Shown in pieces: positions 5,244-7,601 of a stretch of DNA of 48,358 bases (position 1 is the stretch's first letter; each line of letters starts with the position of its first letter). The stretch covers positions 1 to 48,358 of the forward strand of contig CAUJIO010000073.1 of NCBI GenBank assembly GCA_963205315.1, read 5' to 3'. The notes below the pieces were generated by a model. The model saw nothing but the letters and a program-made list of their open reading frames with translations, was not told the origin of the DNA and did no database searches. The position numbers and the translations under genes were made by a program. Source of the DNA: Pseudomonadota bacterium (GTDB lineage: Bacteria; Pseudomonadota; Alphaproteobacteria; Rhizobiales; Aestuariivirgaceae).

Positions 5244-5657
5244 ATGTCCGGTACCATTTCCACTGAACAGGCACTGATCTACACCATGGTCACCATGTCG
5301 GGTGTCGAGGGCCGCATCAACACCGTCGAGCTGGCCGAGATCGGCAACATCGTCAAGCATCTCCCCGCCTTCCGCCATTTCGATGAGGCCCGCCTGACCA
5401 CCGTGGCGCAGGAAGTGGGCGAAATCCTCGCCGAGCCCGAGGGACTGAAGGCCGTGCTGGGATTGATCCGCGAAGCCCTGAGCCCCAAGCTGCGTGAAAC
5501 CGCCTATGCGCTGGCCGTCGAAGTCGCCGCCTCGGACATGGCGGTGGGCAAGGAAGAACTTCGCTTCCTCGCCATCCTCCGCGACACGCTCGACCTCGAC
5601 AAGCTCGTCACCGCCGCCATCGAACGCTCGGCCATCGCCCGCTATCAGACCGAGTAA
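5244..5657 (+). CDS. TerB-like protein (tellurite resistance TerB family)
   Basis: A 137-residue, all-helical acidic protein that fits the TerB/DjlA-N fold: an N-terminal ALIYTMVTMSGVEGRI helix, a DEARLTTVAQEVGEIL segment and a central AYALAVEVAASDMAVGKEEL helix pair with conserved acidic residues. TerB domains are calcium- or metal-binding helical modules found in stress and phage-defence loci. No other ter genes are present, so tellurite resistance is not implied. GGGAG sits about 9 nt before ATG. It follows the helicase by 113 nt on the same strand; co-transcription is possible but unproven. Confidence 0.75.
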   Translation: MSGTISTEQALIYTMVTMSGVEGRINTVELAEIGNIVKHLPAFRHFDEARLTTVAQEVGEILAEPEGLKAVLGLIREALSPKLRETAYALAVEVAASDMAVGKEELRFLAILRDTLDLDKLVTAAIERSAIARYQTE

Positions 5658-5659
5658 GA

Positions 5660-5815
5660 ACCCTCATCCGGCCTGTCGGCCACCTTCTCCCATTCTGCGA
5701 ACGGGAGAAGGCACATGCGGCAACGCGCCATTCTACTCCGCCATCGCCCTTGCGCTTCTATCGCCTTCTCCCGTGGCTTGGCCATGGGAGAAGGTGCCCA
5801 AAGGGCGGATGAGGG
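5660..5815. repeat. Palindromic mosaic intergenic element
   Basis: The outer arms are inverted repeats: ACCCTCATCCGGCC and CACCTTCTCCC on the left (5660-5691) answer GGGAGAAGGTGCCC and GGGCGGATGAGGG on the right (5786-5814). Two further hairpins sit inside: CTTCTCCC/GGGAGAAG at 5684-5710 and CCTTCTCCC/GGGAGAAGG at 5764-5794. This nested, modular layout matches the palindromic mosaic repeats scattered between genes in Rhizobiales genomes (RIME-like families). It begins almost at the stop codon of the TerB-like gene. No target-site duplication was identified. Confidence 0.75.
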
Positions 5816-5834
5816 CCCCTTCACCACATACGCC

Positions 5835-5862
5835 TTGACATTTTATTCCTAAAGCTTATATT
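5835..5862 (+). promoter_or_regulatory. Near-consensus sigma70 promoter
   Basis: A perfect -35 hexamer TTGACA (5835-5840) and a -10 hexamer TATATT (5857-5862) are separated by 16 nt of AT-rich sequence. The predicted start at about 5869-5870 coincides with the first base of a 9-bp stem. No coding region follows on this strand for more than 1.7 kb, so the product should be an RNA. Confidence 0.7.
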
Positions 5863-5869
5863 CCTATCC

Positions 5870-6150
5870 ATCCACCCCCTCTTGGGGTCCTGCTCATGAC
5901 GGTGAGCTCTGGACGGGGTGGATGGCAGGCCTGCGGGTGCAGTTCAACGTAAGCTGCATTCCCGGGGGCAGGCGGAGAACCCCGGGGACATTACGATCCT
6001 CGCGCCCTCTGGCAGTTAGGCAGCCTCACGGCGTGGCCGAAGTGTTCTCTACCCTGCGAAGAAGTCCTGCCGGTTCGCGGGCGCTGTCCAGCGCCACTCA
6101 GCCAGCCTCACCAGCTGGCACACTCGCGCCGGGCAGCGCCCGCGCCTCCC
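5870..6150 (+). ncRNA. Candidate structured non-coding RNA (3' end uncertain)
   Basis: This gene-free stretch between two convergent genes starts at a strong promoter and folds into successive hairpins. ATCCACCCC/GGGGTGGAT (5870-5878 with 5915-5923) encloses an inner GCTCA/TGAGC stem; GCCTGC/GCAGGC (5929-5934 with 5968-5973) encloses TGCAG/CTGCA. GAGAAC (5975-5980) can pair with GTTCTC (6044-6049). Then follow GGCGCT/AGCGCC (6080-6095), GCCAGC/GCTGGC (6101-6119) and GGGC/GCCC (6131-6141). I looked for landmarks of tmRNA (tag frame), RNase P RNA (GAGGAAAGUCC), SRP RNA (GGAAGGAAGCAGCC) and 6S RNA (pairing ends) and found none. No intrinsic terminator is obvious, so the 3' end is set only by the last clear hairpin. 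Confidence 0.5.
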
Positions 6151-6228
6151 ACCATTCGAGAGGGAAAAATGTCACCCTCGCAAAGGCGGAGCCGCGCCTG
6201 AACTCCCGCTGATTGATATCGTTGCCCG
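6151..6228. other. Rest of the gap before the MATE gene
   Basis: A weak GAGGG/CCCTC hairpin near 6160-6178 and a short GC-rich dyad near 6185-6200 are present. Neither has a T-tract on either strand. Nothing else is recognisable; the sequence may belong to the 3' part of the candidate RNA. Confidence 0.3.
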
Positions 6229-7554
6229 TCACGCAAACGCTCTTCGCTCGAGAGAGCCCATGCGGCTGAAAAAGGTCACACCGCGCGCCACGAAGAAGAT
6301 GTTGAGCGCCGCCCACAGCCCGTGATTGCCGAACGGCGCCTCCAGCAGCCACCATGCCAGCATGAAGATGCCCAGCGACACGATCATCATGTTGCGCATG
6401 TCCTTCGTCGCCATGGCACCGGTGAAGATGCCGTCGAACTGGAAGCAGATGACGCCCAGCAGCGGCGAGATCGCCGCCCACGGCAAATAGATACGCGCCG
6501 TCTCGCGTACGGCTTCACTCACCGTCATCATGTCGATGAGCATCGGCCCCGCGAACCAGATGACCAGCGAGCAGGAGAGCCCCACCACCATCGCCCAGAT
6601 GCTCGTCAGCCGGATGGCGGCGCGGAAGCGCGCGCGGTTCTTGGCGCCCACCGATTGCCCCACCAGCGCCTCGGAGGCATAGGCAAAGCCGTCGATCAAA
6701 TAGGCCGAGACTTCGAACAGGTTGATCAGCACCGCATTGGCGGCAATCACGACGTCGCCAGCCCTCGCACCGCGCGCCGTGAACCACGTGAAGGCGAAGA
6801 CCAGGCAGAGCGTGCGGATCATGACGTCGCCGTTCATGCCGAGCGTCTTCAGCAATCGTCCGCGGTCCAGGATGCGCGGCCAGGACACATGCGCGCCCAT
6901 GTTGCGTAGCACGCTCCAGGCCAGCACCAGCGCCAGCGTCACCGCCGACCATTCGGCAATGAGCGATGCCAGCCCGACGCCGTCCGACGTCATGCCGAGC
7001 TCCAGCACGAAGAGGGCGGAAAGCGCCATATTGGTGAGATTGAGAAACAGCTGCACCATGAAGGCCAGCCGCGCCTTCGACTGGCCGATGAACCAGCCCA
7101 TCACGCAATAGTTCGACAAGGCCGCCGGTGCGGCCCAGATGCGATAGTTGAAATAGGTTTCGCCATGCTCGAGGATATGCGCCGAGCCGCCGATCAGATC
7201 GAAGGCCACTTCGCGGATCAGCGGCGACAGCGCGATGAGGCCGAAGCCCGCCACCAGCCCGATCATCAGGGAGCGCGCAAGCACCGCCACCAGTTCCGGC
7301 GTGTCGCCCGCCCCTGTCGCCTGTGCCGACAGCCCCCCGGTCGACAGGCGCAGGAAGCCGAAGCCCCAGAAGATGAACGAGAAGATCAGAGCGCCGACGG
7401 CAATGGCGCCGATGTAATAAGGGTCCGGCAACTGCCCGATCACCGCCGTGTTGACGACGCCGATCAGTGGCTCGGAGACGTTGGACAGCATGATCGGCAC
7501 CGCCACGGTAAGGACCGAGCGATGCGTGACGGGCGATTTCGGATCGAATGACAT
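6229..7554 (-). CDS. MATE family efflux transporter
   Basis: A 441-residue membrane protein with twelve hydrophobic segments in two homologous halves. It has the MATE hallmarks: a first helix followed by PIMLSNVSEPLIGVVNTAVIG, then a GFLRLSTGGLSAQATGA loop, and in the second half ASEALVGQSVGAKN, the repeat of the GxxxAQxxGA-type loop. The group, which includes DinF, exports cationic drugs or metabolites using sodium or proton gradients. I chose ATG 7554 (MSFDPKSPVTHRS) over an upstream ATG at 7590 that would add twelve Arg-rich residues and overlap the divergent gene region. It is convergent with the candidate RNA and divergent from the Lhr-like helicase (47 nt). Confidence 0.9.
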   Translation of the reverse strand: MSFDPKSPVTHRSVLTVAVPIMLSNVSEPLIGVVNTAVIGQLPDPYYIGAIAVGALIFSFIFWGFGFLRLSTGGLSAQATGAGDTPELVAVLARSLMIGLVAGFGLIALSPLIREVAFDLIGGSAHILEHGETYFNYRIWAAPAALSNYCVMGWFIGQSKARLAFMVQLFLNLTNMALSALFVLELGMTSDGVGLASLIAEWSAVTLALVLAWSVLRNMGAHVSWPRILDRGRLLKTLGMNGDVMIRTLCLVFAFTWFTARGARAGDVVIAANAVLINLFEVSAYLIDGFAYASEALVGQSVGAKNRARFRAAIRLTSIWAMVVGLSCSLVIWFAGPMLIDMMTVSEAVRETARIYLPWAAISPLLGVICFQFDGIFTGAMATKDMRNMMIVSLGIFMLAWWLLEAPFGNHGLWAALNIFFVARGVTFFSRMGSLERRAFA

Positions 7555-7601
7555 GGGCCTTGAGTTGCGTCGGCGGCGCACCCAAGTCAAGCTGCGCCAT
7601 C

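Follow-up and report, generated by a model that had tools for sequence, protein, structure and literature searches.

The RNA described here lies in a 48,358-nt stretch of DNA (the window, meaning the whole stretch analysed), between a TerB-like gene and a MATE gene that point towards each other, the convergent arrangement given in a preliminary description of the same sequence. That description proposed a TTGACA-16-TATATT promoter followed by a structured noncoding RNA opening with a 9-bp stem at about 5869. Both hexamers occupy the proposed positions and the stem begins where it was placed, with 10 bp rather than nine. Comparative data support a structured noncoding RNA behind the promoter, and transcription would start at about 5869, as predicted from sequence. 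The features of the locus are as follows.

5244–5657, + strand: TerB-like gene (PF05099, 26.8 bits, cut-off 24.4)
5835–5862, + strand: promoter predicted from sequence (−35 TTGACA 5835–5840, 16-nt spacer, −10 TATATT 5857–5862)
5846–5851, + strand: spacer motif TTCCTA, recurrent in the upstream regions of copies
5869–6150, + strand: type 1 noncoding RNA, about 282 nt, both ends predicted; alignment of 21 copies
5869–5878/5915–5924, + strand: P1, 10/10 pairs changed on both sides
5887–5890/5911–5914, + strand: inner helix within P1, 4/4 pairs changed on both sides
5892–5896/5903–5907, + strand: P2 within P1, 5/5 pairs changed on both sides
5894–5899, + strand: self-complementary hexamer TCATGA at the P2 apex, predicted kissing-loop contact
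5924–5929, + strand: PL 5′ strand GGCAGG, paired with the PL 3′ strand in the window's MFE fold
5937–5943/5953–5959, + strand: P3 hairpin, loop UCAACGUAA with recurrent ACGU, 7/7 pairs changed on both sides
5983–6002, + strand: P5 hairpin, 8-nt loop CAUUACGA, often CAYUAYGR or a close variant
6066–6071, + strand: PL 3′ strand CCTGCC, partner of GGCAGG 5924–5929
6077–6143, + strand: GC-rich 3′ hairpin GCGGGCGCUG...CAGCGCCCGC, from the MFE fold, shared within the window's subgroup
6145–6150, + strand: C-rich tail CCUCCC, read by eye
6159–6192, + strand: REP-like palindrome GAGGG...CCCTCGCAAAGGCGGA, from alignment, common to many aligned copies
6208–6225, + strand: CGCTGATTGATATCGTTG, read as the decayed end of a short element from empty-site comparison and a pattern census
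6229–7590, − strand: MATE gene (PF01554), convergent with the TerB-like gene

An uncatalogued RNA family

A search of the whole window against Rfam 15 (4227 models) returned no match at gathering score, nor did 16 related loci yield one at gathering threshold, in line with the earlier view that the RNA belongs to no recognised family. When 5700–6300 was searched up to an E value of 5, only three matches to miRNA models appeared (E 0.96–3.5), all far below threshold and on the GC-rich hairpin, and they were rejected. ARAGORN reported no tRNA or tmRNA genes in the window.

BLAST with 5820–6228 produced 14 matches in the window's own genome, six of them at least 244 nt long. Of 61 genomes searched, 22 had a match, counting the window's own, and all 22 belong to a single genus, Aestuariivirga. 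A pattern for the P2 region matched, among the matches listed, A. litoralis KCTC 52945 and an Aestuariivirga sp. MAG, together with further records labelled Alphaproteobacteria, Hyphomicrobiales, Rhizobiales, Rhodobiaceae, Proteobacteria or bacterium. Profile searching confirmed at least 19 of at least 135 pattern stretches (at least 117 genomic and 18 viral); none of the 18 viral stretches was confirmed, the best reaching 12.4 bits over 27 nt.

We built a covariance model (R1) of the 5′ 136 positions from a seed of 17, drawn from 41 distinct sequences. Left out of the seed were four own-genome rows, in which the P1 register differs by one, and G018C12; R1 later found all five. The window copy scores 127.6 bits against the covariance model over 5869–6006. 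Of 37 Aestuariivirga genomes, 31 carry R1 matches; the table sums to 157, with as many as 20 in a single genome. The six genomes of the genus with no match indicate that the RNA is dispensable. Seed sequences came from 12 of the 31 matching genomes; the other 19, the window's own among them, contributed none. Across the order, 12 of 297 genomes were matched by R1, and five of these, each with 1 to 8 matches, belong to other genera. A second model (R2), built from 99 matches, matched two of 385 genomes across the class: that of the window and another in which it found two matches. In all, genomes from other families with a match number six, at 1–8 apiece. The window's own genome holds the RNA in eight places: four are type 1, two are of a sister form (type 2, described below) and two are cut by contig ends. 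We found no paper describing this RNA in a literature search that largely passed over subscription journals and is accordingly weak evidence.

Conservation of the fold and its strand

The RNA at 5869–6152 folds with −146.6 kcal/mol (z = −4.0), which none of 200 shuffles equalled. The reverse strand is as stable (z = −3.97), so fold energy cannot tell the strand, and we rejected it as strand evidence.

Comparison of the copies yields both the fold and the strand: aligned as sequences, they have in common a P1/P2 hairpin and a core with P3 and P5, closed by the long-range helix PL. In the seed of 17 sequences, whose structure was drawn by eye from those same sequences, 20 of 35 pairs are changed on both sides. 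Paired cells make up 89.2% in this seed, compared with 38–51% for slid versions. In the 99 matches, which were aligned by fitting to the model and have most seed sequences among them, 33 of 35 pairs are changed on both sides, 91.3% of cells are paired against 39–54% for slid versions, and 0 of 500 shuffles reach any of the measures. P5 has 6/6 pairs changed on both sides and 97.7% of its cells paired. The preliminary description had proposed aligning homologous regions and looking for covariation in the stems; compensatory changes in the aligned copies do exceed those in slid and shuffled controls, as in a structured RNA gene family. G-U cells outnumber A-C cells by 457 to 90 in the 99 matches and by 103 to 17 in the seed, an excess that identifies the + strand as the pairing strand; read on the opposite strand, 79.6% of cells pair in the 99 matches and 74.5% in the seed.

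Helix PL, which lies outside the model, is fully paired in 62 of 78 copies in 10 combinations, compared with 831 of 4990 cross-pairings between copies, in a count that picks the best anchored partner and thereby favours pairing, and that leaves out 17 short and 4 unanchored copies. Its variants include GCAGCG/CGCTGC, GCGGCG/CGCCGC, GTGGCG/CGCCAC and GGCGGG/CCCGCC. The 3′ half of the RNA is subgroup-specific and likewise outside the covariance model. In type 2 the strand that joins P1 to P2, GGAGGGGA, has its complement in the tail UCCCCUCC, and in some copies a change in one is matched in the other; the window has a weak equivalent pairing partner for its C-rich tail in GGGG at 5884–5887 (both read by eye). 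We conclude that this is a real, uncatalogued family of structured RNAs, of which the window holds a noncoding member.

A palindromic loop at the P2 apex

Nine self-complementary hexamers occupy the P2 loop in different copies: TCATGA, TCGCGA, GTCGAC, CTGCAG, TGATCA, GTGCAC, TCTAGA, CCATGG and TGTACA. We counted 6-nt palindromes automatically at 13 offsets in 101 distinct 48-nt segments of the apex and found one in the expected interval in 86, where about 26 to 31 would be expected from the background of 2.3% per position (206 of 8794 in the rest of the model region). Because these segments are relatives of one another, the 86 are not independent cases. In L238, one of the 86, the palindrome lies outside the loop; in L231 the count stopped first at a palindrome other than the loop, which is TCGCGA. 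The 15 palindrome-free apices comprise six with no intact loop in the interval (L039, L047, L237, L279, L292, L298) and nine true exceptions (L043, L049, L053, L057, L061, L233, L276, L277, L302).

Because neighbouring halves of such a hexamer cannot pair within one chain, a change from palindrome to palindrome points to intermolecular pairing. This change in an apical loop, read in OLE and GOLLD as a sign of homo-oligomerisation, is observed here by comparison of copies, with the nine exceptions, and such a conserved loop, complementary to itself, suggests pairing between two molecules of the RNA. The type 1 palindrome runs into the P2 stem, and kissing would need three stem pairs to be opened; in type 2 a tetraloop hairpin could explain part of the symmetry. 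By eye, a second palindrome (GAATTC, CATATG, GATATC or CGGCCG) is also common in the 3′ part of type 2 copies (L309–L312, L283–L292).

A sister form with an open reading frame

Type 2 copies were picked with a pattern that combines a run of purines with a start codon (ATG, GTG or TTG) at the apex of P2, giving 30 copies; since the pattern demands a start codon, the presence of one is no test, and the open frame alone is. Frame 0 stays open for at least 89 codons in 30/30, and frames 1 and 2 do so in 3/30 and 4/30, among copies that are related and so do not amount to 30 independent cases. Substitution rates at the three codon positions are even in four groups (0.31, 0.27, 0.27; 0.18, 0.23, 0.20; 0.22, 0.16, 0.17; 0.30, 0.29, 0.30), and the register of the frame against the fold differs from one subgroup to another, which together argue that type 2 has no conserved protein sequence. 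We therefore rejected a conserved type 2 protein, the rates being flat despite the open frame.

Read from the equivalent triplet, type-1-like copies are open in frame 0 in 7/57, in frame 1 in 0/57 and in frame 2 in 10/57. The window's own RNA was first described as having no coding frame. A 96-aa ORF does exist at 5922–6212, and similar ORFs are open in two own-genome paralogues (L037, L038), but no frame is conserved: that of the ORF, frame 2 from the P2 anchor, reaches 89 codons, or the stretch's end, without a stop only in the ten copies just counted. A protein reading of type 1 failed for this lack of recurrence, and it is highly improbable that the ORF is a small protein gene.

Some type 2 copies are followed by a gene for a small Cys-rich protein with an invariant CPxxxCxRxxxC and a further C. 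It has 19 matches in 15 of the 37 genomes, compared with 31 genomes that have the RNA. In sixteen of the 19 cases a listed RNA match on the same strand immediately precedes the protein match, two more protein matches lie downstream of RNA found with R2 (51.4 and 28.1 bits), and the last case, 152 bases from a contig end, is truncated by that end. Such a gene stands directly behind the type 2 RNAs of L071, L265, L266, L282, L286, L313, L232, L234 and L239; judged by position, its start codon and the stop codon of the frame before it overlap in L266, L282 and L286. The protein had no Pfam match (four members) and no PHROGs match (two members), and its AlphaFold model (pLDDT 71, pTM 0.44) is too weak to be used for searching.

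The placement of this gene, seen by position in 16 of 19 cases and by model search in two, and the constant position that copies in front of it hold, would be expected of a cis-regulatory leader or riboswitch family, with the window copy a stray without its gene. We consider this improbable, however, since the window copy faces a convergent gene and has no such constant position, the protein has 19 matches against 157 for the RNA, and the sole clearly recurrent gene behind type 1, among the matches listed, is lepA (five loci). The comparative data agree with the first description that the RNA is not a leader of either neighbour.

Dispersal of promoter and RNA

Within a genome, copies have in common the RNA and, to a varying degree, its promoter, and nothing past −46. 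For 14 type 1 copies in G005 the mean identity is 0.89 in the RNA, 0.73 in the promoter and 0.50 in the flank; the corresponding values are 0.87, 0.85 and 0.58 for 11 copies in G020, and 0.74, 0.58 and 0.48 for nine type 2 copies in G028; a shuffled baseline, computed for G005 only, is 0.48 for the flank and 0.50 for the promoter. Judged by this comparison, promoter and RNA are linked, and the copies are dispersed units of the two. The preliminary description foresaw neither this dispersed multicopy family nor its ORF-carrying sister form, which can precede a protein gene. Among 120 distinct upstream regions of copies, TTGAC is present in 85, a TTCCTA-like motif (TTCCTA, TTCCTG, TCCTAT or TTATCC) in 85 and both together in 68; TTGAC is absent from 35, including those of the two copies, both type 1, in the A. 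litoralis type strain (L042, L046). Several copies, for example L254, L265 and L282, show by eye an operator-like inverted repeat, TTCCTA...TAGGA, in the −35/−10 region. Also by eye, the window has a CCTCATCCGGCC...GGATGAGGG repeat at 5658–5834, and the L037 copy has a similar repeat next to it.

In 15 other genomes of the genus the TerB-like and MATE genes are neighbours with no copy of the RNA between them, the gap being 2 to 206 nt against 574 in the window. Of 30 MATE loci put to the model, the window's is the one at which it finds the RNA. Among the matches listed, a copy adjoins the same gene, which by its sequence we take to be lepA, in five species (L045, L046, L050, L055, L057), the copy in L057 being internally deleted; judged from its flank, the own-genome type 2 copy L072 also appears to precede lepA.

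Dispersed units with unrelated flanks, 15 genomes in which the TerB–MATE pair has no copy, many fragments, copies at contig ends and a REP-like tail are all features that a non-autonomous, MITE-like mobile DNA element might leave, its structure and promoter serving its spread and its RNA having no cellular role. This seems rather unlikely to us, because the G-U-biased covariation and the palindrome switching act at the level of RNA, divergent copies repeatedly carry the TTGAC and TTCCTA-like motifs, some positions seem to be old (a lepA-adjacent copy in five species) and an unsystematic look identified no transposase or terminal repeat.

We favour, as the probable explanation, a gene for a free-standing, dimeric, trans-acting noncoding RNA. 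It is one copy from a dispersed family, which has its centre in Aestuariivirga and is found in scattered other Alphaproteobacteria. The RNA would be transcribed from about 5869 off its own promoter, two molecules would pair via the palindromic P2 loop, and the dimer would act in trans as a scaffold or binding partner, not as a leader; we propose that it partners a protein, and the small Cys-rich one whose gene follows some type 2 copies is a possible candidate. More speculatively, this might be a homodimerising RNA family with untranslated (type 1) and translated (type 2) forms, in which passage of the ribosome, and not the peptide, switches folding or dimerisation and couples it to a downstream partner protein. 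The type 2 start codon would then sit in the dimerisation loop, with the frame kept open through the fold under no amino-acid constraint.

Relation to known RNAs

In retroviruses, the palindromic hairpin loop of the HIV-1 DIS starts homodimerisation; the P2 loop is alike in being a palindromic hairpin loop, the RNA is unrelated, and dimerisation of the window RNA is a prediction. CsrB-type sRNAs are stand-alone structured protein-binding RNAs. The window RNA, too, is stand-alone and structured and might bind a small protein; unlike in CsrB, no GGA-loop array was seen in it, and its candidate partner is a different, Cys-rich protein.

Among large bacterial RNAs, the OLE L9.3 and GOLLD L21a loops switch between palindromes and are read as intermolecular kissing loops in PMC12286853. 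The same paper gives many GOLLD RNAs as over 800 nt and describes GOLLD and ROOL from phages and prophages, often near tRNA islands (PMC12286853). Like OLE, GOLLD and ROOL, the family described here combines a free-standing complex fold with a palindrome-switching loop. Unlike them, the window RNA has no Rfam match; it is also shorter than GOLLD and, unlike GOLLD and ROOL, its copies are chromosomal and dispersed, with no BLAST match in phage and plasmid collections.

If our reading is right, an uncatalogued structured RNA family is present in multiple copies across a genus that includes the cultured type strain A. litoralis KCTC 52945, and nine loop versions bear the evolutionary signature of RNA–RNA homodimerisation, which makes dimerisation testable through palindrome swaps. 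The small size of the RNA would make structure determination feasible, and its coding and noncoding forms, side by side, would be a natural experiment on translation through a structured RNA.

A second short element in the genus

Of the 15 genomes with an empty TerB–MATE site, six have in that place a short element with a similar promoter and GCTGATTGACATYGTGAA, and the window looks to have kept a decayed form of its end at 6208–6225. This second multicopy element has a TTGACTTT...TTCCTA...TGTGCTA-like promoter, about 35 nt and then GCTGATTGACATYGTGAA. Its pattern has no match within two mismatches in the window's genome; at up to two mismatches it has up to 15 matches per genome in 29 of 37 genomes, with one match overall in a reversed control. 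Besides the window, the element was noted in L329–L334, L355 and L377–L396, and it is possibly a family of short sRNAs.
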